Source: Psychrobacillus sp. FSL K6-4046
GTDB taxonomy: Bacteria > Bacillota > Bacilli > Bacillales_A > Planococcaceae
DNA length: 64,000 bases
Direction: 5' to 3'
Assembly: GCF_038624605.1 (NCBI RefSeq)
Contig: NZ_CP152020.1
Coordinates: 868,001-932,000 of the forward strand
The position numbers and the translations under genes are program-made. Within the stretch, counting starts at the first letter, position 1. The number at the start of each line of letters is the position of its first letter. This document shows, piece by piece, positions 40,001-59,496 of this stretch. Under the pieces are notes generated by a model. That model saw nothing but the letters and a program-made list of their open reading frames with translations, had not been told where the DNA came from and did not search any database.

Positions 40001-40020
40001 TTGGAACATTATAAAAAAAG

Positions 40021-42143: not shown

Positions 42144-42145
42144 TA

Positions 42146-42453: not shown

Positions 42454-42469
42454 AAAAGGGAGGGTACTG

Positions 42470-42670: not shown

Positions 42671-42982
42671 ATGAATGGAGAATTTGATTGGTTCACGTTT
42701 TTAATTGGGTTACCAACGGCGATAGCAATTATGGGGATTACTTTTTTTGTTTTTCGTAGAATCGGAAAGAAAAAAAGACTGTTTGATGAAAGGTACAATC
42801 AAGTACATTCAACAGCAAGATCTTATTCCTGGAAAGTCACAACTGCTGCAATATTAGTAGCATGGATGATTATTATCATTGTGGAGGGACCAGGACTTGC
42901 ATTCTTCATAATGACCGGTCTTTGGGTTGTACACATAGTCTCTTATGGGGTAGGGGCTGCAGTAGCAGATAAAAATAACTAA
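42671..42982 (+). CDS. Membrane protein co-transcribed with the XRE regulator
   Basis: 103 residues. Three helices: WFTFLIGLPTAIAIMGITFF, SWKVTTAAILVAWMIIIIVE and LAFFIMTGLWVVHIVSYGVG, with a basic loop RRIGKKKRLFDERYNQVH between the first two. GAGGGGG lies upstream, and the ATG follows the regulator's stop at once. Family not recognised with certainty. May be the sensor or target that the regulator controls. Confidence 0.7.
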   Translation: MNGEFDWFTFLIGLPTAIAIMGITFFVFRRIGKKKRLFDERYNQVHSTARSYSWKVTTAAILVAWMIIIIVEGPGLAFFIMTGLWVVHIVSYGVGAAVADKNN

Positions 42983-42997
42983 AAGGAGGAATAAATC

Positions 42998-43186
42998 ATG
43001 ACCAAGGCTAAATGGGCACTAGTGGCATCCTTATTTGCTTTAATCGGAATGCCATTAATTTTTTTAGGAATTTCGATATATACAGGACAGTGGTATTACT
43101 TTCTCTTTAGCCTGCCGGCGGGGTTAACGGCAGGGATAACTGGTTTAGTGTCATCTCTTGTACAAATACAATTGGAAAAGAAATAA
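42998..43186 (+). CDS. Small two-helix membrane protein of the XRE operon
   Basis: 62 residues with two helices (WALVASLFALIGMPLIFLGI; FLFSLPAGLTAGITGLVSSL). AAGGAGG lies upstream. Last gene of the three-gene unit before a terminator. Unknown function. Confidence 0.7.
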   Translation: MTKAKWALVASLFALIGMPLIFLGISIYTGQWYYFLFSLPAGLTAGITGLVSSLVQIQLEKK

Positions 43187-43189
43187 AAA

Positions 43190-43226
43190 CAAGGCTATCA
43201 CACATTTATTTGTGTATAGCCTTTTC
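43190..43226 (+). terminator. Intrinsic terminator of the XRE operon
   Basis: AAGGCTAT and ATAGCCTT with inner CACA/TGTG, followed by TT. Confidence 0.8.
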
Positions 43227-43276
43227 TATATGATAAAATAAGAACAAATATTCTATTTTTAGTGAGGTGTAGTACG

Positions 43277-44482: not shown

Positions 44483-44487
44483 AGGGT

Positions 44488-47205
44488 ATGAAAATAGAAA
44501 AGCTCCACATATATGGCTTTGGAAAACATGAAAATCTAGAGGTTAATGTACATGATGGGATTAACGTATTCTATGGAGAAAATGAAGCCGGGAAGTCCAC
44601 GATTCAGCAATTTATACTTCACATCCTTTTTGGCTTCCCGCAACGAAATTCACAGCTGCTAAGATATGAGCCTAGAAGTAATGCCACCTATGGAGGTAAA
44701 ATACAAATTCTAATGGACGATGGCAGTAGAGTTTTCATCGAGAGAGTAAAAGGGAAGGCAAGTGGAGATGTAACCTTATATTTTGAGGATGGTACTCGAG
44801 GAGGAGAAAAGGAGCTTGCGGCAATATTGAATGCTTATAGTCGAGCAGATTATGAGGCAATCTTTTCATTTTCTCTACTTCAGCTGCAAGGATTTGAAAA
44901 AATGACGGAGGAAGAGCTGACACGTACTTTACTTTCTTCTGGAACTACAGGAATGGACACGTTATCTAGTGTTGAAATGCAGTTTGCAAAAGAAATGGGA
45001 GAGCTATATAAGCCTACTGGGCGAAAGCCCCTCATCAATCAAAAAATGGAGGAGATAAGACAGCTTGAAACAGCTTGGAAGGCAGAAATGGACCAAGTGG
45101 AAAAGTACGAGTCCTCCATCCAGCGTTTAAATGAGATTGAAAGCATCTTAAAAGAATCGGTAGAACGTGAGAAAGAGCTAGCGGACCGACTTCAGGATTA
45201 TTCCCATTGGAAGCAATTAAAACCGTTAAAAATAGCGGAAAATGAGCTTTTAGAGAAATTGGATAAGCTACCAAGTCATTCATTTCCTCCGGAAGGTCTT
45301 CGACGATATGAGGCTATTAAGGACAAGCAGACCAATACTCAAATAGCTGTAGAACAATTAAAGCAGGAGCTGCAGTCAATGGTTCATAGTAGTGAAGCAA
45401 TAGCTCCAGAAACTCTAGAGGAAATCCAAGATTTTTTAAGCCAGGAATCTCAATGGCATCAATTACGTGCAAAACGAGTCCAGTTAGAAGAGGAGCATAG
45501 TAAAATTCTCCAGCAGCAAATGCAAGAGCTTAGCCTAGTTGGAATTGATTGGGAAAGCAGCTTAAATGATATTGTGGCGGCTGATGTATCGATCCAGCAG
45601 GAGGACCGGCTGGTGACGATGCTTAACCAACAAGAGCAGCTTAATCAACAATTTCAACAAGAAGAACGTTTGCTAAACCTGAAAATGCAGGATGTCGAGC
45701 AGCTAGAAAAACAGCTTCGTGAATCTAAACGTTCACGTAATTCATCTAAGGGTCAGAGTAACACAAAAGGTATTCTATTTTCACTAGTAGGATTTGTACT
45801 GATGATTGGGTTAATCTTTAGTGTTCTTGCATCCAATTGGCTAATTGCGCTCCTTACTGTAATTATAAGTGCTGGGATATACGGCGGGTTTACCTTGCTT
45901 ATCAAAGGTCTTCAAAAAGAGAATGAGGCTCATCAATATACAGATTTATTAGAGGAAGAATTAAGGAGTCTTAAGGATCAAATTGTGCATCTAGAAGGTG
46001 TAGTTTCAGAAGTTGAACATCAAAAGAAGGAATGCAAGCATAAAATTTATGCCTTTTTAAGAAATTATCAAATTGATGAAGAATTATCCCCAAGCTTACT
46101 GCCTGAGCTATTTAACCGGTTAAGACTTATTCAAAATCAACAAATCCAACTTGACCAGATGGAAGGTAAGCTCGAGGAAGTCAGTAGAAATTTAAGGGAC
46201 TTGGAACGCAGAGCACAGTCCTTAGTGAAATCCCAGTTAGTAGAAGATATTTTATTTCATCAGCTCCGAGAAATTTATTTGAAAGAAAAGAAACGGCTTG
46301 AAGAAGAGCAGACTACTCTTAGTAAAATAACAAAGCTTCAAGAAAAGTTAAATGAGCTAGAATTGTTATTAAGTGCTCAGGAACAGCAGATTACTACGCT
46401 GTTTATGGAGGCGGGAGTTTCAACAGAAAGTGATTTTTACCAAGCACATGTAGTTTCGCAAGCTAGAGCAGCGCTAGAAAAAGAATTAGAGCATGTAAGA
46501 ATGCAATTAGGCGATCGAAAAGTAAACATAAATGATTTTGAAGAAGGCTTTGAAGTAACAGCAAGAGAAACTTTAGAGGCGATGAAAGAAAAAAGTCAAA
46601 TTCTTTTAGAAGAAAAAGCAACCTTACTTTATGAAACGAGTCGCTTACTCGAGAATGAGGAACAAAGTCAAAAGCTACAGCAATTAGAAGAGAAAAAATC
46701 AGAGCTGTATGAGTTAGTAAAAAAATGGGCTGCTTATAAAACGGTAACAGAAGCAATCAAGCAGACAGTATTGCAGTTAAAAGAAGAACGGCTGCCAGAC
46801 GTACTTGATAAAGCCAAAAGCTATTTTAGGATCTTAACGAACGAATCCTACGAGCTGCTAGAGTTTACACCCGAAGGATTATTCGAGGCCGTTAAACCTA
46901 GTGGAGAACGATTTCGAATAGCAGAGCTAAGTCAGGCAACGAAGGAGCAGGCATATATTGCATTAAGGATTGCATTAGCCGTTTCCTTAAAGAATAGGGT
47001 AGCTTTTCCTATTATTCTAGATGATCCATTTGTACATTTCGATCGAAACCGCTTAAAACAAGTGGTACAATTAATGAAAGAGCTACAAAATGAACATCAA
47101 TTACTATATTTTACGTGTCATGAGCATATGCGTCTTAGTTGGAATGAGGCTCATATAATAGATGTAGCGACATTACAAGTTGGAAGTGGAGGGGTTTTGA
47201 GATGA
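44488..47205 (+). CDS. yhaN: YhaN, SbcC/Rad50-like ATPase
   Basis: 905 residues. N-terminal Walker [15 protein letters not shown] in an AAA_27-type domain, long coiled coils (residues ~190-780) with a central hydrophobic stretch [20 protein letters not shown] at about 425-470, which looks membrane-spanning as in other YhaN proteins, and a C-terminal Walker B with [20 protein letters not shown]. Partner of YhaO. The yhaM start overlaps its stop by 4 bases. Three-gene order yhaO-yhaN-yhaM as in B. subtilis. Confidence 0.93.
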
Positions 47206-48140
47206 AGGGAATTACACAACTACGAGTAGGAGATCCTGTCGATCATTTCTTACTGATTAAACAATCAACTAAAGGTATCACTACCGTTGGAAAACCGTTT
47301 ATGTCACTAATATTGCAGGATAAAAGTGGAGATATTGAAGCGAAGCTATGGGATACGAATGAGGAGCATGAAAAGCAATACGCAGCTAGTCAAATAGTGC
47401 GTGTCGGTGGAGAAATCCAAGACTATCGCGGGAAATTCCAGCTACGAGTAAAAAGTATCCGACCTGTGAAATCAGACGAGACGATATCTATTAATGACTT
47501 AGTCCCATCAGCAGAAAAGTCAAAAGAAGAATTGATGGAGGAGTTACTTCAATTTTTCTTCGAGATGAAAAACCCTGTGATACAACGAGTAACACGTCAT
47601 TTAATGAAAAAGCATCAAACTGCATTTATGACATATCCAGCTGCTACTAAAAATCATCATGATTATGCTTCTGGTTTAATCGATCATGTTGTTTCCATGC
47701 TTAAGCTAGGGAAATCGCTTTGCGAGCTGTATCCGACTTTAAACAAGGATCTTTTGTATGCCGGGATCATCTTACATGATATTGGGAAGGTTTTAGAGCT
47801 TTCTGGTCCTGTCGCTACTACGTATACAATTGAAGGTAACCTTCTAGGGCATATTACGATAATGGTAAATGAAATATCAAAGGCAGCGGAAGAGCTTCAA
47901 ATTGAAGGCGAAGAAATAATGCTCCTTCAGCATATGGTGCTTTCACATCATGGTAAAGAAGAGTGGGGCAGTCCTAAGCGTCCAATGGTGCGTGAAGCGG
48001 AGATCTTGCACTATATTGATAATATCGATGCCAAGATGAATATGCTTAATCGTGCTTTAGCAAAAACAAATCCAGGTGAATTCACTGAGCGTCTATTCCC
48101 ATTAGAAAATCGTTCCTTCTATAAACCTACTTTTGAATAG
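47202..48140 (+). CDS. yhaM: YhaM, 3'-5' exoribonuclease
   Basis: 312 residues. N-terminal OB-fold ([20 protein letters not shown] then LWDTN) and an HD domain with metal motifs [22 protein letters not shown] and [13 protein letters not shown]. subtilis YhaM degrades single-stranded RNA and DNA from the 3' end. Translationally coupled to yhaN. Ends at a very strong terminator. Confidence 0.95.
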
Positions 48141-48144
48141 CTAG

Positions 48145-48184
48145 AAAAAACGTAAAGGTCTATTTGACCTTTACGTTTTTTTTG
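48145..48184 (+). terminator. Intrinsic terminator after yhaM
   Basis: AAAAAACGTAAAGGTC pairs perfectly with GACCTTTACGTTTTTT around TATTT. Confidence 0.93.
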
Positions 48185-48207
48185 AAAAGAATTATATGGG
48201 ATAGAGA

Positions 48208-48236
48208 CAAAAAAAGACCGCGACGTGAGTCACGGT
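48208..48236 (-). terminator. Intrinsic terminator after prsA
   Basis: On the minus strand GACCGTGAC and GTCGCGGTC form the stem, then seven T. Confidence 0.88.
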
Positions 48237-48261
48237 CCCCTATATTATAGGATATATCTAA

Positions 48262-49182
48262 TTATTTTTCAGTTTCTTCAGTTGCTGGTTGCTCTGTAGA
48301 ACCTGCAGCGTCTCCTGCAGCTAAAAATTCATCCAACGCTTTTTCTAAATCTTTATCTTTGATGTCAACTTTAGCATCTTTTAACAATTTAGAAATTTTA
48401 GGTAGTAATGCAGCTTGATCTGCTTTTTCAAGTTTCAAGTTTTTCTCTAACTCTGCTTTTTTGTCATCATATGACTCTTTAACTTCACGCTTGTCCGTAA
48501 CTTCGATAACGTGGAATCCAAAGCTAGATTGAACTGGCTCACTGATTACGTTAGGCTCTAAGGCAAATGCAGCTTCTTCAAATTCTGCAGCCATTGCACC
48601 TTTACCAAACCAACCTAATTCTCCACCACTTTGTTGTGCAGCTGGTTCTGTAGAATAAGCTTTTGCCACTTCCGCAAAATCTTTTCCGGATTCTAATTCA
48701 GCTTTAACTTTCTTAGCCGTTTCTTCATCCTCTACAAGCACGTGGCGTGCATTAATTTCATTTTTCGTATTTTCATATTCAGCCTTAATTTCATCTTCTG
48801 AAACTTCTACATCTTCAATAAGAGCAGCTTCTTGTAGAAGGTTAAGACGTAAATACTTTTTGTAGGATTCTTCTGTGTATCCTTGTTGTGCAAGCAATGT
48901 TTCAAAGTTTTCCCCAAGTTGTTCTTTATCTGCTTTTAGCTGAGCATCTACTTGTTTGTCGGTAACATCGTACTTAGAGTCTAATACTTTTTCAATCATA
49001 AGAAGTTGAAAAGCTTGATCTCCAATAGAAGCCTTCATTTCTTCATATAAATCATTTTGTGTAATGTCGCCTACTTTAGAGGATGCAATTACTTTACTGC
49101 TATCTGCAGATTCATTGTCATTACAAGCCCCTAATGCAAGAACAGATGCTGCTAATGTTAATGATAAAACTGTTTTTTTCAT
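48262..49182 (-). CDS. prsA: Foldase lipoprotein PrsA
   Basis: 306 residues. Signal peptide with lipobox LGAC (residues ~17-20), an N-terminal SurA-like helical region, a parvulin peptidyl-prolyl isomerase domain (NARHVLVEDEETAKKVKAEL; GGELGWFGKGAMAAEFEEAA; SSFGFHVIEVTD) and a Glu/Ala/Gly-rich tail. Anchored on the outer membrane face, where it folds exported proteins. ATG at 49182 has AGGAGAG upstream; the frame runs open 21 codons further but without a ribosome site. Confidence 0.95.
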   Translation of the reverse strand: MKKTVLSLTLAASVLALGACNDNESADSSKVIASSKVGDITQNDLYEEMKASIGDQAFQLLMIEKVLDSKYDVTDKQVDAQLKADKEQLGENFETLLAQQGYTEESYKKYLRLNLLQEAALIEDVEVSEDEIKAEYENTKNEINARHVLVEDEETAKKVKAELESGKDFAEVAKAYSTEPAAQQSGGELGWFGKGAMAAEFEEAAFALEPNVISEPVQSSFGFHVIEVTDKREVKESYDDKKAELEKNLKLEKADQAALLPKISKLLKDAKVDIKDKDLEKALDEFLAAGDAAGSTEQPATEETEK

Positions 49183-49268
49183 AAAAATCTCTCCTAACTT
49201 CATCTTGCTGCAACTGTAACTATACCATAAACGAAATAAAAACAAAAATGGTTCCCGTGCATTTGCCC

Positions 49269-49297
49269 ACCATATTTGGAAACCACCGCATAAGATA
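49269..49297 (+). promoter_or_regulatory. Candidate sigma-K-type sporulation promoter
   Basis: ACC (49269-49271), 17 bases, then CATAAGATA (49289-49297), which fits the sigma-K -10 pattern CATANNNTA with an AC-type -35. It lies 25 bases before the spore-peptide start. Confidence 0.5.
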
Positions 49298-49321
49298 AAT
49301 TAGAAAGAGGAGGTGTTCTAA

Positions 49322-49438
49322 ATGGGTGGACAATACAACTACGGCGGTGGCTCTGGTGCTGGTGCTGGTTCAGGTTTTGCTTTATTGGTAGTTCTGTTTA
49401 TTCTTTTGATTATCGTTGGCGCTGCTTTCATCTACTAA
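49322..49438 (+). CDS. SscA/YjcZ-family small spore peptide
   Basis: 38 residues, missed by length cut-offs. N-terminal Gly/Tyr/Ser/Ala-rich part MGGQYNYGGGSGAGAGSG, then one hydrophobic helix (FALLVVLFILLIIVGAAFIY). This is the layout of the YjcZ family and of B. subtilis SscA, a small spore-coat assembly protein encoded in the same region. AGGAGGTG lies 5 bases upstream. A sigma-K-like promoter precedes it, consistent with mother-cell expression. Confidence 0.85.
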   Translation: MGGQYNYGGGSGAGAGSGFALLVVLFILLIIVGAAFIY

Positions 49439-49495
49439 CGTAATCAATGACTAAGGACACTTAGGTGTTCTTAGTCACTGTATGGCTAATAAAAG

Positions 49496-49534
49496 AAATG
49501 ACCCAATCATATAAATGATTTGGGTCAATTTTTC
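49496..49534. terminator. Bidirectional intrinsic terminator
   Basis: AATGACCCAATCAT and ATGATTTGGGTCAATT form the stem; T-run follows. A second hairpin at 49446-49478 (TGACTAAG/CTTAGTCA with inner CAC/GTG) has no T-run. Confidence 0.82.
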
Positions 49535-49536
49535 TA

Positions 49537-49722
49537 TTAAACTGCGTAAACTAACTCAACATAGAAAGATACAAGAAGAATCGTAATTAATATATTAATG
49601 GTTCTAAAAATCTTAGGATGTTTTTCTTCTGGGATTTCTTTTGACATCACAAGTGCATATGTCATTCGATTAATTTGTAGCAAGTAAAATGCTGAGAATA
49701 GAACTAAAGTAAATATGATCAT
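49537..49722 (-). CDS. Small two-helix membrane protein, unknown
   Basis: 61 residues, two helices (IIFTLVLFSAFYLLQI; TINILITILLVSFYVELVYA) with a short charged loop SKEIPEEKHPKIF. ATG at 49722 has GGGAG 8 bases upstream. Lies in the prsA-scoC interval, where B. subtilis also has small membrane genes; family not recognised. Confidence 0.65.
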   Translation of the reverse strand: MIIFTLVLFSAFYLLQINRMTYALVMSKEIPEEKHPKIFRTINILITILLVSFYVELVYAV

Positions 49723-49790
49723 GTCTAAACTCCCTTCATGTACACTAAGCATATCAAATTAGGGGTATTAGTTACAAGTGTAACATATTA

Positions 49791-50336
49791 CTAATGATGG
49801 GAAGCGACGATTAAAATTTGATAACCAGCGTCTGTTTCTTCGACAAAAGCACTTCTAGGTGATTTACTTAAATTCTTTACATAGATCAAATCTATCAGGC
49901 ACATACCGCAATGATAGGCTAATAGCATAATGAAATAATGAGCAAAATGTGGCGCCACAAGAGCACCTATTAGAATAGCAGCGTTTATAAAAATAAAAGG
50001 TGAAAGCAACGAAAATATAAACTGATATTTATTTATTGGTTCACAGACTTTTATGGAAACTATCGGAAGAAAACCATAACGTCTGTTAAGAGTTACTTTT
50101 ATATGATCACGAATAGTAAATAACGGAAGAAAATGAAACAACTTGTGAAGTGGATATACCATTATCATACCAATCGCAAATAGCCAAAAGAAGTCATCAG
50201 ATTTATGTGAGTCATTAATAGTTTCTTGTAAAGCATAGACAATTGAAAAAACGGACATAACTAGTATGGAAGATAGGAAAAATAGCCGTTCCATACCATA
50301 TTGTTTTTTGACATTAATAGTTTTCCAACAATGCAA
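49791..50336 (-). CDS. DUF3267-like membrane protein
   Basis: 181 residues, about four helices. HKLFHFLPLF after helix 2 resembles the HExxH-like position of DUF3267 proteins (zinc-metalloprotease-like membrane family), but the Glu is missing here (HKLFH), so protease activity is doubtful. TTG at 50336 with GGAG upstream. Position next to scoC matches B. subtilis yhaJ-type genes. Function unknown. Confidence 0.65.
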   Translation of the reverse strand: MHCWKTINVKKQYGMERLFFLSSILVMSVFSIVYALQETINDSHKSDDFFWLFAIGMIMVYPLHKLFHFLPLFTIRDHIKVTLNRRYGFLPIVSIKVCEPINKYQFIFSLLSPFIFINAAILIGALVAPHFAHYFIMLLAYHCGMCLIDLIYVKNLSKSPRSAFVEETDAGYQILIVASHH

Positions 50337-50457
50337 GATTGATGCATCTCCTATATAGTAAAATATATTTCAGATACATACAATACGATGTTTCTATATA
50401 AAATACAAGCTTATTAATTGTAAAGATTTATAGAACGCTTACATTGCTGATATGACG

Positions 50458-50991
50458 CTATTCTGCCTTTGTGAAAGACTCATCAATATTTTGAATAGAA
50501 CGCTCGAATATTTCCATGAAGTCGTCACCATAAATATTGCGAATAACTGCCATAACATCCATGAAGTCTGGAAACCTGCCGTACAAATCTTTCATTGGAC
50601 GAGACCCTTCAATAACAGAATGAGGAGTTTGGTGGTAATTCTCATACATTTCCTCTAAAAGTAGTTGACCTTTTTCCGTAACGTCTACATAAGTGTTGCG
50701 CTTGTCTGTGTCTCGTTTAGAGAAAGAAAGCAATCCACGCTCCTCGAGTTTCTTAGAGAAATTAAAGGCTGTAGAAACATGCATAACTCCAAATTTAGCT
50801 ACATCTGAAATGGTCGCACCTTTTAAATGATAGGATATCCATAAAATATGGTGTTCATTAATATTAAGGTCATAGGGCTTAATCCATGTTTGCCAATCTT
50901 TTTCCACTGCCTTCCAAAGAGCCTTGGAAAGTTGAGCGATTCGCTGACTATATAGCATTGCTTCCTTCATCGTATAAAATTGATCAGTCAT
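50458..50991 (-). CDS. scoC: MarR-family transition-state regulator ScoC (Hpr)
   Basis: 177 residues. The MarR winged-helix core matches B. subtilis ScoC/Hpr closely: [40 protein letters not shown] and the C-terminal [16 protein letters not shown]. It represses protease, sporulation and peptide-transport genes during growth. ATG at 50991 is preferred to the upstream in-frame TTG because AAGAAGG lies before it and homologues begin there. The tail is shorter than in B. subtilis. Confidence 0.95.
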
Positions 50992-51227
50992 CTCGTATGC
51001 CTTCTTTCTGGTATATAATCTTAACACATTATAGCAATAAAGTAAGAAAATTGAAATAAAATATTTGAAAATATTATTAATTTTATAATAATTTATTTTA
51101 TTTCAACATTAGTCCAGTTAGACAAAATTTCCTATATCGATAAGTATAGACACCTATAGTTAGTCTAGCAAGCTATTCATATAGATATATTTTAGAATAA
51201 TTGAAACATTCAAAAATCTATAGGTTT

Positions 51228-51268
51228 AAAAAAAGTATGCCTTTAATCTAAAAGACTAAACGCATACT
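51228..51268 (-). terminator. Intrinsic terminator after yhaH
   Basis: On the minus strand AGTATGC and GCATACT arms, with inner TTTA/TAAA pairing, precede seven T. Confidence 0.82.
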
Positions 51269-51273
51269 GGTGG

Positions 51274-51651
51274 TTAGTTAGTAACTATAACTTCTTTTTT
51301 CTTAGGAAGTGCTTGTTCAAGCTCATCAATAGCTGTTTGAATGGATGAAATCTCATTTTGTAATTGTTGTTGGAGAGGGGCTGTGTCACTTTGCCACTTT
51401 TCAACGCTTTCTTTCACATCTTTGACTGTTCGTGGAATCATAACCTGTGATTCTGCCTTTAAGCTTTGTATCGATACCTTCACTTTTCGTAGCTGATCGT
51501 TAATATCGGAAAGCTTGTCTTTGTAGTCAGCAGATACCGCTTTAATATTTTCCCTAACTTCTGGACCACTTTTAGGGGTGGATAAAAGTACAGTAGTCGC
51601 ACCTGTTAATGCTCCAAGAGCTACACCAATTAATAATTGTGATACTTTCAT
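51274..51651 (-). CDS. yhaH: YhaH (YtxH-domain protein)
   Basis: 125 residues. N-terminal glycine-rich membrane segment of YtxH type (LLIGVALGALTGATTVLLST then PKSGPEVREN), followed by a long coiled-coil helix and a KKKE tail. YtxH-domain proteins are general-stress-related and membrane-associated. ATG at 51651 has AAGGAGTG upstream. Synteny (scoC-yhaH-trpP) as in B. subtilis. Confidence 0.88.
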   Translation of the reverse strand: MKVSQLLIGVALGALTGATTVLLSTPKSGPEVRENIKAVSADYKDKLSDINDQLRKVKVSIQSLKAESQVMIPRTVKDVKESVEKWQSDTAPLQQQLQNEISSIQTAIDELEQALPKKKEVIVTN

Positions 51652-51717
51652 GCAAATCACTCCTTATATGTATATATTATTCCTTTCCTTTCCATTATTA
51701 AAACATAATATTCAATA

Positions 51718-51753
51718 CAAAAAAAGCTTTCCTCATAAAAGGAAAGCTTTTTC
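51718..51753. terminator. Bidirectional intrinsic terminator
   Basis: AAAAAAGCTTTCCT pairs with AGGAAAGCTTTTT. Confidence 0.85.
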
Positions 51754-51797
51754 AGTGTTTAGGAATTATATAAATATAGACATGTGGATAAATTAAT

Positions 51798-51953
51798 GTC
51801 TAGCTCCACCGCCTTGCCCCTCGGGGTCAAATGGGAAAATACTGCTCCTGCGCAAGCTCGTCGCAAACAAGAGCGTTTGCGGTGGCTGAGGAACTGCCTC
51901 CTCGCATTTCCCCATTTGCCTGTCGGGGCAGACATAGGCGCTTGCGCTTTTCT
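51798..51953. repeat. Dispersed palindromic intergenic repeat (~156 bp)
   Basis: GC-rich relative to its surroundings. The left part (GTCTAGCTCC..CCTTGCCCCTCGGGG) and right part (CCTGTCGGGGCAG..TAGGCGCTTGCGC) are partly self-complementary, as are CAAATGGG and CCCATTTG, so the whole can fold into one long hairpin. Related GTCTAGCTCC...GGCGCTTGCGC elements are widespread in Bacillales intergenic DNA as I remember. A half copy is at 5796. Confidence 0.75.
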
Positions 51954-51957
51954 TGTG

Positions 51958-52482
51958 TTAAATGGTAAGTGCAGTATTAAAATTAGAGCGTCTTACAAGT
52001 TTTACGACAATCGGATAAATGATAAAAAATGCTATGCCATTTATAAGGATTGCTGGTAAAACGACTATTAGGAAGAGTTCTGTAAATACCGCGCCCGCAT
52101 TAAATATGAAAATAGCGGTGGATAGGAAAACAGTTCCTGATATTAAAGTGCCAACGCAAGTTAAAAAGACTGCTACGGCCAATTTGTTAGCTAATTTGTT
52201 TAATAAAATAACTAGACCAAAGAAAACAAATGCAGTGATTGTCTTATCAATTATATTTGGAACAAAGCCACCAGGGAAGGTAGAAAATAATCCTGAAATT
52301 ATTCCTGTGGAGAACCCTAGTAAAAATACACTTTTGACCTCGGGAAATAATAGTATTCCAATAAACATCATGGTCAACATGAAGTCTGGCTTCATACCCC
52401 CGTTAATACCGGGAATAATAATGTAAAGCACTGCTCCTACACCAACTAGTAAAGACATTAGTACAAGATTCTTCGTATTCAT
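51958..52482 (-). CDS. trpP: Tryptophan transporter TrpP
   Basis: 174 residues with about five helices. N-terminal LVLMSLLVGVGAVLYIIIPG then INGGMKPDFMLTMMFIGILL matches B. subtilis TrpP (YhaG). Takes up tryptophan. The sequence before the ATG is rich in GAG/TAG triplets, which in B. subtilis bind TRAP, but here they also make up the ribosome site. Neighbours are hit and yhaH, as expected. Confidence 0.9.
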   Translation of the reverse strand: MNTKNLVLMSLLVGVGAVLYIIIPGINGGMKPDFMLTMMFIGILLFPEVKSVFLLGFSTGIISGLFSTFPGGFVPNIIDKTITAFVFFGLVILLNKLANKLAVAVFLTCVGTLISGTVFLSTAIFIFNAGAVFTELFLIVVLPAILINGIAFFIIYPIVVKLVRRSNFNTALTI

Positions 52483-52593
52483 TTCTCATCTCTCCTCAAC
52501 TTTTCTCAGGCTGTTTAGTTCTCCTAACGTATCCTCGTGATCGTTAGCAAGAAACTTATTATAGATTGTAAATCTTTTTCCTTTTAAAAGCAA

Positions 52594-53022
52594 TTAGTTG
52601 GCAGATAATTTATTTGACAGTTCTTTTGCCAAGTCCTGAATCATTTCGGATGAATAGGTTTTTTCCTTCGTATTCCAAGTGAGCTTCAGCCCATCGGTTT
52701 GATCGTAGCGAGGGATAAAATGCAAATGAAAATGGAAAACGCTTTGTCCGGCAGGGGCACCGTTATTATTTAATAGGTTCATCCCAACAGGTCCAAACGT
52801 ATCCTTTAATGCAGACGCAATTTTTGGAACTACCTTAAATAAATTGCTAGCCTCTTCTTCGCTTAAGTCATATACATTTTCCTTGTGGGATTTAGGAATG
52901 ATTAACGTATGTCCCTTTGTCAGAGGCATAATATCCATAAAAGCATACACATGTTCATCCTCATAAATTTTAGCACTAGGGATAGAGCCATCAATTATTT
53001 TACAAAAAATACAGTTACTCAT
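52594..53022 (-). CDS. hit: HIT family protein Hit
   Basis: 142 residues. Histidine triad QSVFHFHLHFIPR around residues 93-105; N-terminal CIFCKIIDGSIPSAKIYEDE and the IIPKSHKENVYDL segment are standard for the PKCI/HINT-type group. Nucleotide phosphoramidate hydrolase by family. Divergent from ecsA, as in B. subtilis. Confidence 0.95.
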   Translation of the reverse strand: MSNCIFCKIIDGSIPSAKIYEDEHVYAFMDIMPLTKGHTLIIPKSHKENVYDLSEEEASNLFKVVPKIASALKDTFGPVGMNLLNNNGAPAGQSVFHFHLHFIPRYDQTDGLKLTWNTKEKTYSSEMIQDLAKELSNKLSAN

Positions 53023-53177
53023 GAAAAAACCTCCTATTCATTATTAGGATGAGTTTAACATATAATAGGACAAGTTTGTTTTTCTTTTTAACAATTTGAG
53101 AGATAGAAATAAAATGACAGAAGATTTTTAAGGCAGGCTTTGGTAAAATTATAATAAAGAAGAAGTGAGGTGTAGAA

Positions 53178-53918
53178 ATGACTGTACTAGAAGTAAAAAA
53201 TGTAACAGGTGGATATACAAGAAAGCCTGTATTGCATGATTTGGACTTTTCTATTGGTAAAGGAGAGCTTGTAGGTTTAATCGGGCTGAATGGTGCTGGG
53301 AAAAGTACAACGATCAAGCATATTATTGGAACAATGAATGCCGCAAACGGGGAAATTCTACTAAACGGAAAGACGTTAAAGGACGACCCAGCACTATATC
53401 GCTCTTCTTTTTCTTATATACCAGAAACGCCGGTATTATATGACGAGTTAACGTTAAATGAACATTTAGAGCTTACGGCTATGGCCTACAATTTGGACAA
53501 GGATGTATTTGAGGCAAGAAAAACTTCCCTATTAAAAGAGTTTCGTATGGAAAAACGATTAAACTGGTTTCCAACTCATTTTTCTAAGGGAATGCGTCAA
53601 AAAGTGATGATTATGTGTGCATTTTTAGTGAGTCCATCCCTATACATTATTGATGAACCGTTTGTAGGTCTGGACCCTTTAGGTATTCAATCACTACTGG
53701 ATCAGATGAAAGCAAGAAAGGATGAGGGGGCTTCTGTCCTCATGTCGACACATATTCTATCAACAGCTGAACGATATTGTGATCGCATACTTCTTTTGCA
53801 TAATGGGAAAATTCGTGCACAAGGAACGATGACGGACTTACGAGCAGCATTTAACATGCCATATGCTACATTAGATGATCTTTACATCGAAATGACAAAG
53901 GAACAACAAGATGAATAA
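53178..53918 (+). CDS. ecsA: ABC transporter ATP-binding protein EcsA
   Basis: 246 residues. Walker A GLNGAGKSTTIKH, signature region FSKGMRQKVMIM (SKGMRQK, an altered LSGGQ typical of EcsA), Walker B LYIIDEPFVGLDPLG and switch His STHILS. Works with the membrane protein EcsB. In Bacillus, Ecs affects secretion, membrane proteolysis and competence. GAGGTG precedes the ATG; ecsB overlaps by 8 bases. Confidence 0.95.
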   Translation: MTVLEVKNVTGGYTRKPVLHDLDFSIGKGELVGLIGLNGAGKSTTIKHIIGTMNAANGEILLNGKTLKDDPALYRSSFSYIPETPVLYDELTLNEHLELTAMAYNLDKDVFEARKTSLLKEFRMEKRLNWFPTHFSKGMRQKVMIMCAFLVSPSLYIIDEPFVGLDPLGIQSLLDQMKARKDEGASVLMSTHILSTAERYCDRILLLHNGKIRAQGTMTDLRAAFNMPYATLDDLYIEMTKEQQDE

Positions 53919-55107
53919 TTTGCGTGAAGTATGGAGTAAGCGATTTGTCTTCTATATAAATGAGCTTCAGAAATACATGAAATTTATTGTTTCTGGTCAT
54001 TTGGCTATTGTTATCGTATTTGCGATTGGCGCGCTAGGCTATACGTATAGTGGATGGCTAAACACAGCTCCTAAGGATTTTCCCGCATATTTGGTAGTTG
54101 CGTTTATCTTAAGTATCTTAGTTACATTAAGCACACCTGTTACTCTGTTAAAAAATGCAGACAGTGTGTATTTTTTGCCGTTAGAAACAAAGCTAGGGGA
54201 ATATCTACGACTGGCACTTCGTTGGACCTATTTCTCTTCAATCGTAGTCACCTTGGCTGCATATGTTGTGGCAATTCCTTTACTTACAAGAGTAGCTGGT
54301 AGTACAAGAGAAGAAATTATTGCTTTATTGATATTTTTATTAGTATTGAAGTATTGGAGCATCCATACAGAGTTCAACTTCCGATGGGCTGCTAATGGAA
54401 GAGGCGTATGGGGAGACCGTTTTCTACGCTTTCTACTTGTATTAGTAGCACTGTATTTCCTATTGAATGGAAGCTATTTATTTGTGATTTTAGTGGCTAT
54501 TGTACAATTTATTTATACAATGGCATGGGTGAAAAAGAAAAAAGAAGTTCCATTTCCATTTGAACACTTTATTGTAGTTGAGCAATCTCGTATGATGAGA
54601 TTTTACCGATTTGCTAATTACTTTACCGACGTTCCACATATTCGTGGAGCAACCAAAAGAAGAAAATGGTTGGATGTATTTTATAAGCTGGCGAGATATG
54701 GACAAAAAAATACCCAGCTTTACTTAGTTATGAGGACTTTCATCCGAACGAATGACTTTTTCTATTTGTGGCTGCGTTTAACTGGACTTGCGATCATCGG
54801 AGCTATATTCATTCCGTTCCCAATCGTATCCATCATATTTGCCGCTGCCCTTTCCTTTGCTACAGTTATTCAGATTAAGCATGCACTATTGTCAGGATAT
54901 GAATTTAGAATGGATCTTTTGTTTCCTATTGAAAAGGACGCAAGAAAGCAATCAGTTGCGCGTTTGATTCGGATCCTTCAGTTCATTCAAGCAGTGGCTG
55001 TTTTGATAGGTGTTCTAATCCAAGGCGGAAATTCTCCTATCACATACTTAGTACCAGTAGCCGTGTTAGTAGTGTCAGAACTAACTTTGCGAATGAGTAA
55101 AATCTAA
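53911..55107 (+). CDS. ecsB: ABC transporter permease EcsB
   Basis: 398 residues with about eight to ten helices; N-terminal REVWSKRFVFYINELQKYMK and the central RFLRFLLVLVALYFLLNGSY match EcsB. Permease partner of EcsA; the exported molecule is unknown. In B. subtilis ecsC follows; here a terminator and the repeat array follow instead. Confidence 0.93.
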   Translation: MNNLREVWSKRFVFYINELQKYMKFIVSGHLAIVIVFAIGALGYTYSGWLNTAPKDFPAYLVVAFILSILVTLSTPVTLLKNADSVYFLPLETKLGEYLRLALRWTYFSSIVVTLAAYVVAIPLLTRVAGSTREEIIALLIFLLVLKYWSIHTEFNFRWAANGRGVWGDRFLRFLLVLVALYFLLNGSYLFVILVAIVQFIYTMAWVKKKKEVPFPFEHFIVVEQSRMMRFYRFANYFTDVPHIRGATKRRKWLDVFYKLARYGQKNTQLYLVMRTFIRTNDFFYLWLRLTGLAIIGAIFIPFPIVSIIFAAALSFATVIQIKHALLSGYEFRMDLLFPIEKDARKQSVARLIRILQFIQAVAVLIGVLIQGGNSPITYLVPVAVLVVSELTLRMSKI

Positions 55108-55118
55108 TTGTTGAAATA

Positions 55119-55166
55119 AAAACTGTAAATACACTCAAGTAAATTGAGTGGTTTGCAGTTTTTTTA
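55119..55166 (+). terminator. Intrinsic terminator after ecsB
   Basis: AAACTG and CAGTTT outer arms with ACTCAA/TTGAGT inner arms; seven T follow. Confidence 0.88.
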
Positions 55167-55194
55167 TTTGAGAAACAAAGTATGGAGTTGTGTC

Positions 55195-55501
55195 TATAAG
55201 TAGGGGGGCCCATAAAGAGTATGGAAAGCGCCTATAAATAGGATGGAAGTGACCCATAAATCAAAGAAAAGCGCCCGTAAACGTGGGAATCGCCCATAGG
55301 TTGATGGAAAGTGTCCCATAAAGTGTAGGAAAGCGCCCATAAACAGGTTAGGAGTGTCCCATAAATCAAAGCAAAGCGCCCGTAAAGGTGTGAATCGCCC
55401 GTAGGCAGGCGGAAAGTGTCCCATAAAGAGTATGGAAAGCGCCCATAAACAGGATGGAAGTGACCCATAAATCAAAGAAAAGCGCCCGTAAACGTGGGAA
55501 T
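55195..55501. repeat. Array B, part 1: ~21-bp repeats with 105-bp higher-order period
   Basis: About 15 units. Five variants recur in order: GCGCCCATAAACAGG, GTGACCCATAAATC, GCGCCCGTAAACG, ATCGCCCATAGGTTG and GTGTCCCATAAAG, each led by GGAAA-like bases. Successive copies of the five-unit block are 105-106 bp apart. Two overlapping minus-strand frames stay open through it, which is an effect of the repeat period. Confidence 0.88.
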
Positions 55502-55575
55502 TGGTCTTCTGTAAAGAAAGTAGACAAATTAATTCACAACTTTTTTTCTTCCACTACCGCGCTGTCGCTTGCTGG

Positions 55576-55626
55576 GATGGTGAAAACAGGATAGGTCACA
55601 ACCATACCTATCCTATTTCCACCATC
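55576..55626. other. Hairpin inside IS3 copy B, downstream of orfB
   Basis: GATGGTG pairs with CACCATC, then after a symmetric internal loop AGGATAGGT pairs with ACCTATCCT around a 9-base loop. It lies 11 bases beyond the orfB stop. Confidence 0.82.
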
Positions 55627-55636
55627 TCTGATTTTC

Positions 55637-56524
55637 TCACCCTGCAGCCAAAAGACAACTTTTATTGAACGCTTGTTCAAAGTCTACAGGACTCACATAA
55701 CCCAACGTGGAATGCCTTCTTCTCGTATTATAGAATTGGTCAATATAATGCCCAACCGCTTTGATTGCTTGCTCACGCGTCTCCCATTTATGGCGGTAGA
55801 TCAACTCTTTCTTGATCGTCGCATGGAACGACTCGATACAGGCATTGTCATAAGGATCTCCCTTGCGACTCATGCTGCCCTTCATTTCTCTTTCGGTCAA
55901 TAACCCGGTATAATCCTGCGAACAATATTGCGATCCACGGTCCGAGTGATGGATTAGTCCTTCCCCTGGGTCCCTTATCATAATTGCCTGTTGGAGGGCT
56001 TCGAAGGGTAATTCTTTTTTCATATTGTCTCTAATACTCCAGCCAATAATTTTTCGTGAAAAAAGGTCCATCACGCTCGCCAAATATAACCACCCCTGTA
56101 TAGTCCAGATATACGTTATATCTGTTACCCATACGGTATTAGGTGCTTCCGCCAAGAATTTGCGTTCAAGCAGATTTGGATAGATAGGATGTTGGTGATT
56201 GGAATCCGTCGTCACCACGTAAGGGGTCGCTGATGTCGCACGGAGTCCCATCTCGTTCATTCGTTTCCCTATTGTCCGCTCACACACGTGAACACCTTGC
56301 GCCTCCAAATCTTTTGCGATTCGCGGGCTGCCATAAGTTCCATGACTTTCAATGAAGCTGGTTCGGATCAGTTGGTTGATTTCTTCTTTTTCCTCTTGAA
56401 TTCTGTTCCGTTTCTCTTTTTCTCTCAACCATTTGTAATAACCACTAGTTGAAACCTTTAAAACTTCAGACATCTTCACCACGCGAAACTCATTTTGATG
56501 TTCCTCTATGAACGTAAATATCAC
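55637..56524 (-). CDS. IS3-family transposase OrfB
   Basis: 295 residues visible. HTH_21 region ([19 protein letters not shown]), rve integrase core with WVTDITYI (Asp), [11 protein letters not shown] (Asp) and [14 protein letters not shown] (Glu), and a C-terminal [16 protein letters not shown]. It belongs to a different group from copy A. Its GTG overlaps the orfA stop; the fusion protein would arise by -1 slippage at A AAA AAG in orfA. No internal stop. Confidence 0.95.
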
Positions 56525-56808
56525 GTGTGGCCTTTGGCGAAGACATGCATGGCCTTTTTTAAGATTTCATTTTCCTCCTTCAGTTCTTTTTCGTTCTTCT
56601 CTAGCTCTGCTATGCGTCTTTTCAGTTCTGTAGAAGAGATGAGCTGTTCATTATTTGAAAGCTCCTGCTTCTTGTTGTAGGCCCTTACCCAGGCACGAAT
56701 TCTTTGCGGCTTGATCCCATGTTCATATCCTAATTCGGTTGCCTTTCTTCCATCTTCGATTACCAATTTCACCAGATAATCACGCATTTCTCTACTTGTC
56801 CTTGTCAT
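56521..56808 (-). CDS. IS3-family OrfA
   Basis: About 95 residues: helix-turn-helix ([20 protein letters not shown] and [11 protein letters not shown]) and a leucine-zipper coiled coil ([20 protein letters not shown]), ending [17 protein letters not shown] at 56808 lies 11 bases from GGGAG; a GTG at 56817 is too close. LKKAM carries the slippery A AAA AAG. Confidence 0.92.
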
Positions 56809-56883
56809 AATAAACACGCTCCCTTTATTTTCTATAAGTATGAGGGTCGTGTTTTAACGTGTCCACTTTTTATACTATCTCTA

Positions 56884-56983
56884 GAATCGCCCATAGGTTG
56901 ATGGAAAGTGTCCCATAAAGTGTAGGAAAGCGCCCATAAACAGGTTAGGAGTGTCCCATAAATCAAAGAAAAGCGCCCGTAAA
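56884..56983. repeat. Array B, part 2, between two insertion sequences
   Basis: Five units (ATCGCCCATAGGTTG, GTGTCCCATAAAG, GCGCCCATAAACAGG, GTGTCCCATAAATC, GCGCCCGTAAA), continuing the fixed order from part 1. Confidence 0.88.
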
Positions 56984-58480
56984 GAGAACGTATAAAATTT
57001 TGTGTAAATGACCATAACTTTCCTATAGGAGATGATCATTATGCAAAATTACGAAAATATGAGAATCAAGGATTTAGCTAGAGAGTGTCAATCTGTTGAT
57101 GACATCATCGAGATGATGAAAAATCTTTTTAAAGAAACATTACAGCTTGTATTTGAGGCCGAAATCGAAGACCACCTTGGCTACTCCAAACATAGCCCGA
57201 CAGGAAATAATACCGGAAACAGTAGAAATGGCTATCGTTCAAAGGTGATTCGAACAAAGTTTGGAAATACAGAATTAAATATACCTAGAGACCGCAATGG
57301 TGAATATGAACCGCAAATCGTGAAGAATTACGAGTCGTCCATCAATGGCTTAGAAGAACAGATTTTAGCTTTGTATTCCAAAGGAATGTCCACAAGAGAT
57401 ATCGAGTCACATATGAAAGATATATATGGTGTCGAAGTATCTCCTAGCTTGGTTAGTAAGGTAACAGATAAAATTTTACCTCAGATTTTCGAATGGCACT
57501 CCCGCCCTTTAGACCGTGTGTATCCAATTGTTTATTTGGATGCGGTCCACTTCAAGGTGAAGCACGAGAACCGTATTATTAATAAAGCTGCTTATACTGT
57601 TCTCGGCATTAATTCCGATGGAATTAAGGATATCCTTGGTATATGGGTAGGTGAAAATGAAAGCGCGAGCTTTTGGCTAGGTGTCTGTACAGACCTTAAA
57701 AGTCGTGGTGTAGAAGATATCTTTATTGCGTGTAAGGACGGACTTTCTGGCTTTACAGAAGCGATCCAGAGCACCTTTCCAAAGACGCATATTCAGTTGT
57801 GTGTGATCCATCAATTACGAAATACCATGAAGTATGTGCCTTCAAGGGAACGAAACCCGTTTATGACCGATTTAAAGAAGGTATACAAGGCTTCTACTTT
57901 GGAGCAAGCTGAACTTGAGTTTGGAAAAGTAAAGGCATCATGGAAAGATAAATATCCGAAGGTTATTGGTTCTTGGGAGGAACATTGGTTGGAGCTTACA
58001 GCTTACTTTTCCTACCCGACGGAGATACGGAAAATCATTTATACGACCAATACAGTGGAAGGATTCCATCGCCAACTGAGAAAGGTAACAAAGACAAAAA
58101 CAGCCTATCCTACGGACAATTCACTAAAGAAGATTCTTTATTTGGCCACGATGGATGCCATAAAAAAATGGAATAAGCCTATTCCAGGATGGCTAGAGTG
58201 TGAGGGACAATTCAAAATTATTTTTGAGGGGCGGATTTAGTAGGATTATCCCTTGTTCATGTACAGTCGTGTTGGGCTCCGCTACGCTACACCCAAAAGT
58301 TTTACGCTTTATTTAGACCAAAAAGATAAGAAAAAGAGAGAGAAAAACCCTCTCCTTTTTGGCCATCGGTTAAGTGCTCAGGTTGCTCTTCAGCAGAGCC
58401 TTATCCCCTTAACGGATAAAGTAAGTATGTGTTTAGAATAAAGATAGTAATACATTTACACAAAATATTTTACATTCCCC
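56984..58480 (+). mobile_element. IS256-family insertion sequence
   Basis: 1497 bp inserted in array B. Terminal inverted repeats: GAGAACGTATAAAATTTTGT at the left, GGGAATGTAAAATATTTTGT inward from the right, both continuing GTAAATG. Target duplication CCCGTAAA at 56976-56983 and 58481-58488 (8 bp, normal for the family). About 240 bases between the transposase stop and the right end hold no supported gene. Confidence 0.92.
57041..58240 (+). CDS. IS256-family (Mutator-type) transposase
   Basis: 399 residues. N-terminal DHLGYSKHSPTGNNTGNSRN then GYRSK, central DDE domain (PIVYLDAVHFKVK for the first Asp, FIACKDGLSGFTEAI for the second, TNTVEGFHRQLRKVTKTK with the Glu) and HIQLCVIHQLRNTMKYV, the family's C/D-x-x-H region. 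ATG at 57041 has AGGAGA at 9 bases. Appears intact. Confidence 0.96.
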   Translation: MQNYENMRIKDLARECQSVDDIIEMMKNLFKETLQLVFEAEIEDHLGYSKHSPTGNNTGNSRNGYRSKVIRTKFGNTELNIPRDRNGEYEPQIVKNYESSINGLEEQILALYSKGMSTRDIESHMKDIYGVEVSPSLVSKVTDKILPQIFEWHSRPLDRVYPIVYLDAVHFKVKHENRIINKAAYTVLGINSDGIKDILGIWVGENESASFWLGVCTDLKSRGVEDIFIACKDGLSGFTEAIQSTFPKTHIQLCVIHQLRNTMKYVPSRERNPFMTDLKKVYKASTLEQAELEFGKVKASWKDKYPKVIGSWEEHWLELTAYFSYPTEIRKIIYTTNTVEGFHRQLRKVTKTKTAYPTDNSLKKILYLATMDAIKKWNKPIPGWLECEGQFKIIFEGRI

Positions 58481-58578
58481 CCGTAAAGGTGTGAATCGCC
58501 CATAACCAGGTGGAAAGTGTCCCATTAAGAGTAAGAAGGCGCCCATAAGCAGGTCCGAAGTGTCCCATTAATCCACCA
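58481..58578. repeat. Array B, part 3
   Basis: CCCGTAAAGG, then ATCGCCCATAACC, GTGTCCCATTAAG, GCGCCCATAAGC and GTGTCCCATTAATCC. The order of variants is kept, but sequence is more diverged (CATTAA replaces CATAAA), so this is an older edge of the array. Confidence 0.82.
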
Positions 58579-58666
58579 TAAAACTTGGATTAGCAAAACT
58601 TAATGACGCTCGTGTTTTACAAAAATAGGAATCATTATTTTAATTTTTGTACATATTAAAAATAAG

Positions 58667-58692
58667 AAAACGCTCAGATTATGAGCGTTTTA
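58667..58692 (-). terminator. Intrinsic terminator after hmoB
   Basis: AAAACGCTCA and TGAGCGTTTT flank a 5-base loop; on the minus strand CTTATTTTT follows. Confidence 0.8.
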
Positions 58693-58715
58693 GCGTTGTT
58701 TATTAATCTCTATTC

Positions 58716-59204
58716 TTATTCCTCTTTTGTTTTTGAACGATAGGTCGATATATAAGGGGCGCTTGTAAATAACTGTTGCTTATCTGCGACACTGGTGAAG
58801 TCTAGTGCAACAGACTTTTCCCAGATTTCATAGCTATTAGGTCCATTCCATTCTGATAAGATAATATAAGTATCTGATTTTAAAGGTTTTAAAACGCGTA
58901 AAGCTATGAAGCCTGGTTCAGATTCAACAGTTGGAGAAAGGTTTGTATATTGATGTTCAAATATTGGTTTACCTTCATCTGATACGGGGATGTGGTGAAG
59001 GACAAAGTATCCATTCTCATTAAAACTGCCGCGAGATTCTAAAATTTCATAAATACGAGGGACTTGAAAGACGGATTTACCAGTCGTTTCATGAATGAGA
59101 ACTGAATTTCCTGTTCCATGTAAAATGTATATATTTTCATTGGGGTGTTTATCTTTTATGGACTGCATAAACTCAGGTGTTCCGGACGTCATATATAATT
59201 TCAT
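58716..59204 (-). CDS. hmoB: Heme-degrading monooxygenase HmoB-like (ABM domain)
   Basis: 162 residues: N-terminal half of unknown fold and a C-terminal antibiotic-biosynthesis-monooxygenase domain (NLSPTVESEPGFIALRVLKP; YIILSEWNGPNSYEIWEKS). Length and layout match B. subtilis HmoB (YhgC), which opens heme and frees iron. GGAGGAAG precedes the ATG. It is divergent from hemE, so heme breakdown and synthesis genes sit back to back. Confidence 0.88.
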   Translation of the reverse strand: MKLYMTSGTPEFMQSIKDKHPNENIYILHGTGNSVLIHETTGKSVFQVPRIYEILESRGSFNENGYFVLHHIPVSDEGKPIFEHQYTNLSPTVESEPGFIALRVLKPLKSDTYIILSEWNGPNSYEIWEKSVALDFTSVADKQQLFTSAPYISTYRSKTKEE

Positions 59205-59496
59205 TAAACTTCCTCCAGTATAATTTATATTTTGTATTTATATTTTCCCCTAATTTGCAAATTTAAAAACAACCTTTTTTCAGGATGGTTTGAAATCAGG
59301 ACAAATTTATGACAATTCCCGTTTATAACTATACATTAATTCAAGAAACGTCTATAGTTGAAGCGTATATTGGAAACGGAATGTAATCGTTATCAAAGGC
59401 AATTCAAAAGATTTTCTTCAGGCAATGTAGTAAAGTATTATCATGTAATGTATTTAGGTATAAAATAACATGTTATCAAGAAGGGCAGGAAATGAA

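Follow-up and report, generated by a model that had tools for sequence, protein, structure and literature searches.

Structure of the array

What is the row of short direct repeats behind ecsB in Psychrobacillus sp. FSL K6-4046: a set of binding sites, a satellite, part of a transcript, a stretch of bent DNA or the remnant of a gene? The window analyzed here is a stretch of 64,000 nucleotides (NZ_CP152020.1, positions 868,001 to 932,000, forward strand). The array begins directly behind the ecsB terminator, as the initial annotation had stated, and is interrupted by two insertion elements, and a second array lies in the same window:

40085-40417, + strand: second array with the same core (exact cores at 40155-40416, preceded by degenerate units)
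55209-55501, + strand: array segment A, about 14 units in five-unit blocks of 105 bp (TRF, core positions)
55502-56884, - strand: presumed IS3-type insertion element interrupting the array (ORFs, 3-bp AAT duplication)
56885-56983, + strand: array segment B, 5 cores (core positions)
56984-58479, + strand: presumed IS256-type insertion element interrupting the array (ORF, 8-bp duplication CCCGTAAA)
58480-58571, + strand: array segment C, final units, degenerate in part (TRF, core positions)

TRF reported a period of 105 at 55209-55501 (2.8 copies, 86% matches) and also a 22-bp array at 58499-58568. When both insertion elements were omitted, the array was continuous, with 23 CCCRTAA cores (at most one mismatch) spaced 22-22-21-19, 22-21-22-21-19, 22-22-22-21-19, 22-21-22-21-19 and 22-21-22 bp, a pattern of 22-21-22-21-19 that gives 105 bp per five units. 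The five variants therefore recur in fixed order as originally described, and of the proposed unit near 21 bp only the five-unit sum near 105 bp was retained, the units themselves being 19-22 bp long and not uniform. The core of this array is AAAGYG-CCCRTAAA, R being A or G freely. The + strand of the window holds 30 exact cores with 21 neighboring pairs 18-23 bp apart, while the - strand holds 9 cores with no neighboring pair at this distance, and no core pair at 18-23 bp was found in 30 first-order Markov copies of the window.

The first insertion element, which we take to be IS3-type from its ORF arrangement and the look of its sequence, has transposase ORFs at 55637-56524 and 56521-56817 and is flanked by an AAT duplication (55499-55501 and 56885-56887). 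The second, presumably of the IS256 type, has a 402-aa transposase ORF at 57032-58240 and is flanked by the 8-bp duplication CCCGTAAA at 56976-56983 and 58480-58487; this duplication is the array core itself. Five of the six copies of the IS256-like element were located inside such arrays, which belonged to three core types.

A 93-aa ORF with a TTG start spans segment A on the - strand, as might be expected if the array were the remnant of a coding sequence. However, the reading frame changes inside each block because its units measure 19, 21 and 22, and elsewhere in this genome entire blocks come to 104, 106 and 169 bp, none of which is a multiple of three. These block lengths contradict a coding remnant, which we regard as extremely improbable, and agree with the earlier statement that the array has no coding role.

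Arrays elsewhere in the genome and in relatives

Further copies, sought in the genome and in relatives, were plentiful in both. The array at about 40085-40417, which the initial annotation had missed, is more degenerate than that at 55195-58578 and sits after a terminator, and the ORF downstream of it is, by its look, presumably a sigma-factor gene. Ten or more further arrays of this kind, with differing spacers, are present in the genome (11 arrays at scattered loci; cores of 7-12 bp, spacers of 9-14 bp, neighbor ORFs viewed as translations). The arrays are intergenic, with several loci per genome and species-specific loci, and they consist of multi-unit blocks, the number of blocks differing between strains. 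They are placed after terminators and also between divergent genes: the upstream neighbor gene is co-oriented with the array in 28/44, but lies on the opposite strand in 16/44, and both neighbors do so in 8/44.

This placement bears on a possible role in RNA, in which a read-through transcript would carry the repeated word as a small-RNA sponge or as protein sites. The frequent position behind terminators of co-oriented genes is in its favor, and the A/G freedom at R would suit pairing with U. The opposite-strand neighbors argue against it, a spacing in helix turns would make no evident sense in RNA, folding of six stretches gave no structure signal (z -1.62 to +1.45), and no Rfam match reached the gathering threshold in the window region 39900-59400. 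We consider this role improbable.

Related arrays were found in other Psychrobacillus, Sporosarcina, Planococcus and several Bacillaceae, with the core words CCCRTAA, CAACCA, AATACCCGCGG and others. In Psychrobacillus sp. OK028 and Halobacillus sp. A5 one core stands amid unrelated spacers, and in the latter a single 6-unit element has been copied to several loci. At the ecsB locus the array is absent in 16 of 17 other Psychrobacillus species. Array orientation was strongly related to replication in four genomes, but not in G182 or G003. The idea that core types exclude each other was dropped, because both patterns are matched by genomes G001, G003 and G190 (the CAACCA runs listed for G001 have a pitch of 18 bp) and, with the patterns present in 20/261 and 36/261 genomes, chance alone would let about 2.8 genomes share both.

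Beyond chromosomes, BLAST of three arrays (this one and those of genera g8 and g17) found nothing among 72,556 plasmid records, in a search that a short core alone escapes, and one array (genus g8) had no match in phages. Among viral contigs there were no stretches with the genus g8 core, 8 with GCCCRTAA, which by eye resemble coding repeats, 5 with ACCGACCGAT and 32 with GCAACCAA; the last two groups have pitches of 11, 12 and 20-25, often exactly 21, which is also a multiple of three. Viral contigs may thus carry arrays. In open-access papers, none of the titles among the matches listed for six core strings concerns such repeats, and no title describing such arrays was found for tandem or intergenic repeats; judged by titles, the arrays were not found in print there.

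A constant pitch of about two helix turns

In seven sets of arrays, with distances of 12-34 allowed, neighboring cores were 18-22 bp apart except for one pair at 34. A core-blind scan of the window and 108 loci, some overlapping, with the fetching cores masked, detected 18 runs (10 words) whose pitch was 18-23 bp, whereas the control pitches of 6-17, 24-35 and 48-53 bp yielded no run. Blocks with one 19-bp unit occur in two genera with different cores (105 bp in this genome, 103 bp in genus g17). The constant feature across arrays is the pitch, not the word, and the suggested phasing with the helix stands as geometry.

Variation of core and spacer

Between block copies, differences were counted at 14/1241 fixed core positions, 15/207 R positions and 254/3100 spacer positions; variation at the free R, although it lies within the core, resembles that of the spacer, and the fixed core letters vary less. 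The counts exclude 1136k (only 2 blocks), G011_C23 and blocks below 80% identity to the consensus (1 of 574k, 3 of G011 C34), and the sets 3361k/G011 C18 and 1164k/G011 C4 are orthologous pairs, hence non-independent. Orthologues in two strains differed at 14/774 fixed core, 7/129 R and 73/1149 spacer positions. From these sequences, selection seems to keep the word but not the gaps. The comparison of block copies, together with the block order, also supports the proposed duplication of blocks from an older array.

Intrinsically curved or flexible DNA, in which phased GC- and A-rich stretches act by shape and not through a sequence reader, would be consistent with a pitch that alone is fixed while any core word seems to do, and 8 of 9 arrays exceeded their Markov copies in curvature (wedge model), a result to which we give little weight. 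Any phased repeat would appear curved against unphased copies, and within this family individual letters are conserved although R may freely be A or G, which indicates reading of the bases. We therefore find shape alone very unlikely.

Another alternative is selfish or near-neutral satellite DNA, which would grow through slippage and unequal exchange in preferred steps of two helix turns and be copied to new loci, where the core would be needed by the copying process or be a relic of common origin. The multi-unit blocks and their varying number, the 6-unit element of Halobacillus sp. A5, the absence of the ecsB-locus array in most relatives and the accumulation of IS256-like copies within arrays, as though these were harmless, all point this way. 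On the other side, singletons, which postdate duplication, are rarer in the fixed core (9/1007) than in the spacer (88/2425), with R between (4/168), and independent arrays with unrelated spacers retain one core. We regard such satellite DNA as a real possibility, though not a probable one.

In the three orthologous arrays with the cleanest alignment there was no difference between core (6/292) and spacer (9/587), an equality of change that fits a satellite and counts against binding sites.

A possible row of protein-binding sites

The explanation we propose, to which we give an even chance, is that the repeats are putative sites at which a sequence-specific DNA-binding protein would attach, all facing one way and following each other at about two helix turns. 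Its support comes from the pitch, the directionality, the spread in the genome and in related genera, and the core constraint. Each putative site would be a core of about 8-12 bp, and because the sites lie about two turns apart, the subunits would align on one DNA face and could bind head-to-tail. We infer that a protein reads the core and that it binds the array cooperatively. The protein binding considered possible at the outset fits the core constraint. Since arrays occur both behind terminators and between divergent genes, they would probably serve chromosome behavior or protein titration rather than one promoter, and no single array can be essential, because 16 of 17 species do without the one at the ecsB locus and insertion sequences are taken up freely. 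Should selection act on the pitch, many of the non-coding repeats in these genomes could be interpreted as rows of protein sites, and array DNA could be used to capture the proteins that bind them.

Comparison with known systems

Plasmid iterons likewise are direct repeats, each about two turns long and with a core specific to its replicon, but they sit at plasmid origins, where a Rep initiator binds them. CRISPR/TIGR arrays have a long conserved repeat or a C/D-box motif, with effector genes alongside.

RemA of Bacillus subtilis has a LytTR-related domain and recognizes repetitive, poorly conserved DNA, which it may wrap; its sites are AT-rich 7-bp protected stretches at 3-bp intervals in promoter regions (PMC8481266). 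This 10-bp periodicity was rejected as a model for arrays with a pitch of 18-22 bp. BldC multimerizes asymmetrically, head-to-tail, along direct repeats that vary in number and distorts the DNA, a likeness to the binding proposed here, but it takes up about one turn per subunit, has the motif AATTXXXX(C) and acts at promoters of developmental genes (PMC5859096).

The most concrete known mode with the array geometry is the LytTR operator. As described in the accessible part of the source, LytTR operators are direct repeats of 9 bp with 12 bp between them (11 or 13 in a minority), poorly conserved between systems and present as a single pair just upstream of the -35 element (PMC6193735). The arrays share the 20-22 bp pitch of direct repeats, but have many units, often behind terminators, and also 19-bp units, which do not appear in that description. 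A LytTR sequence like ACCRCTTAY did not fit in a column-permutation test (p 0.39 for the array at 55195-58578, 0.056 for the 3110k array), and the operator matrix gave no support to LytTR binding of the CCCRTAA family. The matrix fitted 2 of 24 families, ACCGATTAT and ACCGCTTAT (p 0.003, the floor of the test). As a broader conjecture, which we think unlikely, Bacillales chromosomes would carry a general class of elements in which many different short words each recur every two turns, each word having its own head-to-tail protein, of the LytTR type in at least two cases. Such phased arrays would act as landmarks or in titration, point along the direction of replication in several genomes, keep their geometry while the word evolves, and serve as landing sites for an IS256-like element.

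The nearest known kind are the STAR elements of Staphylococcus. STAR elements, in the available sections of their description, consist of the 14-bp repeat T[GAT]TGTTG[GT]GGCCC[CA] with spacers of 40-44 bp, at a pitch of 54-58 bp against 19-22 bp in the arrays, and a five-unit order is described for the arrays and not there (PMC3532100). By eye, the published core or its complement was not seen among array cores, and array pitches of 18-22 bp (one pair at 34) do not accommodate STAR spacers. Both kinds are short directional direct repeats, intergenic, with several units per locus, locus-distinct spacers, loci differing between species and an abundance that does not follow phylogeny (PMC3532100, same sections), and the STAR-type distribution over several species-specific intergenic loci per genome was found for the arrays. 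If it is the pitch that selection maintains, the purpose of STAR-like repeats becomes testable, as does the question of whether phased site arrays serve chromosome organization or regulator titration.

The array in the window

The initial annotation had placed an array of ~21-bp units in five-unit blocks of ~105 bp behind the ecsB terminator, and TRF confirmed this position (105-bp period, 86% matches, 55209-55501). The array is interrupted by two insertion sequences, with flanking duplications of AAT (3 bp) and of CCCGTAAA (8 bp), and a second, worn array lies elsewhere in the window.

Features of the window
55195-58578, + strand: CCCRTAA array
55502-56884: IS3-type insertion sequence
56984-58479: IS256-like element, its 8-bp target duplication being the array core CCCGTAAA
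~40085-40417: second array, worn

The fixed repeat order claimed for the array was borne out: with both insertion sequences removed, 23 cores form a single uninterrupted series spaced 22-21-22-21-19 per block, with small variants. Neighbouring core pairs at 18-23 bp numbered 21 on the + strand versus 0 on the - strand and 0 in 30 Markov copies; therefore, the array spacing is not a chance product. By eye, several arrays, at 574k, 908k, 923k (the present array) and 1164k (locus L076, the window, locus L079), start directly after a terminator with a G-run; a few finish in a C-run.

Arrays in the source genome and in relatives

Further copies, on which the earlier interpretation depended, are present both in the strain's own genome and in relatives. 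In the single 3.886-Mb contig of the source genome, of which the window covers 868001-932000, CCCRTAA pairs 16-25 bp apart occurred 67 times forward and 99 times reverse (reversed control pattern, 0), and arrays were located near 574, 624, 908, 923, 1136, 1164, 2005, 2474-2476, 3110 and 3361 kb, with a further one at 2874 kb reached via a copy of the IS256-like element (together ~0.1% of the genome, a rough sum). Their spacers are not alike, but most are built on a five-unit pattern in which one unit is short. Two unit types, AAA-GCGCCCRTAAA and AAAG-TGTCCCATAAA, alternate (by eye). A frame argument counts against a coding reading of the arrays, and no RNA-level structure signal was seen in the folded array stretches.

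Block length of the genome arrays
Usual: 105 bp
574k and 3361k: 104 bp
624k: 106 bp
1136k (exception to the five-unit pattern): eight-unit block of 169 bp
908k (exception to the five-unit pattern): irregular

Triple CCCRTAA cores were present in 7/19 genomes of the genus and 20/261 of the family. Drafts are common among the relatives' genomes, and in G011, a genome of the same species as the source strain, several contigs stop close to an array (C14, C22, C26, C28, C34, C39 and C49 end no more than a few hundred bases from one), which makes absence from a draft weak evidence. The arrays probably break short-read assemblies. When 84,980 species genomes were scanned, 93 stretches turned up; among the 80 matches listed, 54 were Bacillales (counted from titles: Psychrobacillus, Halobacillus, Sporosarcina, Planococcus, Lysinibacillus endophyticus, Bacillus, Peribacillus, Rossellomorea, Oceanobacillus), the remaining 26 being scattered and some clearly other repeats. 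Among these 26, Tannerellaceae MAGs (L167, L212; Bacteroidota) likewise carry tandem 21-bp repeats with CCCATAA, which may or may not be akin to the Bacillales arrays.

Psychrobacillus sp. OK028 and Halobacillus sp. A5 retain the core with apparently unrelated adjacent spacers. In Halobacillus sp. A5, a similar 5-6-unit array recurs at L168, L180, L181, L198, L199, L220 and L233, preceded by similar sequence at five loci and by a different one at L198 and L199. A 20-bp array with differing spacers occupies the same position in two Bacillus-type genomes (L196, L200; one carries the label B. subtilis DE0224), between an ORF resembling a sensor kinase and an ORF resembling an ABC transporter. In genus g8, probably Lysinibacillus or a close neighbour of it, the core is AATACCCGCGG (pitch 21, some 19). 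A second core, CAACCA, matched in 36/261 family genomes, a count that includes coding repeats, and forms 103-bp blocks of 21+21+21+19+21 in genus g17 (unit lengths by eye).

Pitch as the constant feature

Core-to-core distance was 18-22 bp in 7/7 sets with 12 to 34 allowed, the sole other value being one pair at 34; pitch is the constant feature of the arrays. The source genome also holds a family with core ACCGACCGATTAT (four loci, runs of five or six units, 20-21 bp) and a TAC[AGT]ACAAT family (one array at 750 kb). A core-blind search for regularly spaced runs of at least 4 identical 6-mers, in which the cores used to fetch the loci had been masked, covered 618,621 bases (the window and 108 loci, some overlapping) and found 18 runs of 10 different words at pitch 18-23, a density biased because the loci had been taken for other arrays of the same pitch. 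Five runs belong to the ACCGACCGATT family and five to the GCTCAA family. Across the same bases there were 0 runs at 6-11, 12-17, 24-29, 30-35 and 48-53, 1 at 36-41 and 6 at 42-47, and 5/7 of the latter two classes had pitch 41-43, that is, two units. The L280 run looks coding, as does one 42-47 run (L272); in-frame coding repeats would also yield 24, 27, 30 or 33, and none of those pitches appeared. One intergenic region (L076, genome 574326-575003) holds two core families, CCCRTAA on + and ACCGACCGATT on -, in both cases matching the strand of the nearer upstream gene.

Variation in core and spacer

Among block copies, cut without reference to the core, minority letters numbered 14/1241 in the fixed core, 15/207 at R and 254/3100 in the spacer, and singletons 9/1007, 4/168 and 88/2425, respectively. 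The two strains of the species differed at 14/774, 7/129 and 73/1149 positions, where arrays with block turnover can add paralogous differences to the spacer counts. R, sited mid-core, is a built-in control. In the three orthologous arrays that aligned most cleanly (two gap-free, the third with one gap, and two of the three with many degenerate units), core (6/292) and spacer (9/587) showed no difference, which, on small numbers, counts against core constraint.

Orientation with replication

The dnaA gene lies at the contig start in genomes G000, G003, G055 and G069, spans the junction in G182 and lies at 970 kb in G190. With the terminus taken as half-way and contig midpoints used, 38/44 arrays among those listed in five genomes were co-oriented with replication, versus 60/88 adjacent ORFs (P 0.03). 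G182 had 8/13, and the other four genomes 30/31 versus 41/62 adjacent ORFs (Fisher P 6e-4). The four arrays of G190 remain co-oriented once its dnaA is set at 970 kb, and 4/5 of its CAACCA arrays are additionally so; G003, with both cores counted, had 2/5. Some genomes thus show a strong bias, and others show none.

Turnover and the IS256-like element

The region downstream of ecsB holds the array in G011 and an array of the other core, GCAACCA, in G010; in the 16 Psychrobacillus genomes left, no 6-mer occurred there three times running at array pitch. The IS256-like element has six genome copies (L342-L347, at 249167, 749954, 924984, 2474912, 2874306 and 3411225), and 5/6 sit in 21-bp arrays, whose cores are of three types: CCCRTAA (three copies), TAC[AGT]ACAAT (one) and ACCGACCGATT (one). 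The sixth copy is outside any array. Either the element senses a feature common to the arrays, or the arrays are safe places.

Comparison with known systems

The arrays may be rows of sites for DNA-binding proteins, arranged head-to-tail on one DNA face; such rows would be expected to show a pitch constant at about two turns, a directional core with one free letter, and words varying by family and lineage, as the arrays do. Searches of open-access papers turned up no account of these arrays. Operators of LytTR systems are described as having a near-two-turn direct-repeat geometry like that of the arrays (PMC6193735). A LytTR matrix, built from 33 published repeats after the arrays had been seen and tested versus column-permuted arrays, fitted ACCGATTAT (9.0 bits) and ACCGCTTAT (10.6 bits), each at p 0.003, the test floor. 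The other 22/24 families, CCCRTAA included, failed to reach p 0.1, and the p combined over the 24 families was 0.03; two additional rows, from families within that count, came to 0.056 for the 3110k CCCRTAA array and 0.093 for GCAACCA of G010. LytTR is therefore a lead for the two fitting families; for the others it serves as an analogy. The ACCGCTTRT array (L268:12-290, G182) and the ACCGNTNAG array (L090:450-580, G011), both of pitch 20-21 bp, resemble published LytTR operator repeats and apparently lie away from a promoter (by eye).

The STAR element of Staphylococcus differs from the arrays in core and spacer length as far as described, so that the arrays do not belong to it, and its function is given as unknown (PMC3532100). 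STAR shares habits with the arrays and is the nearest described kind (PMC3532100).
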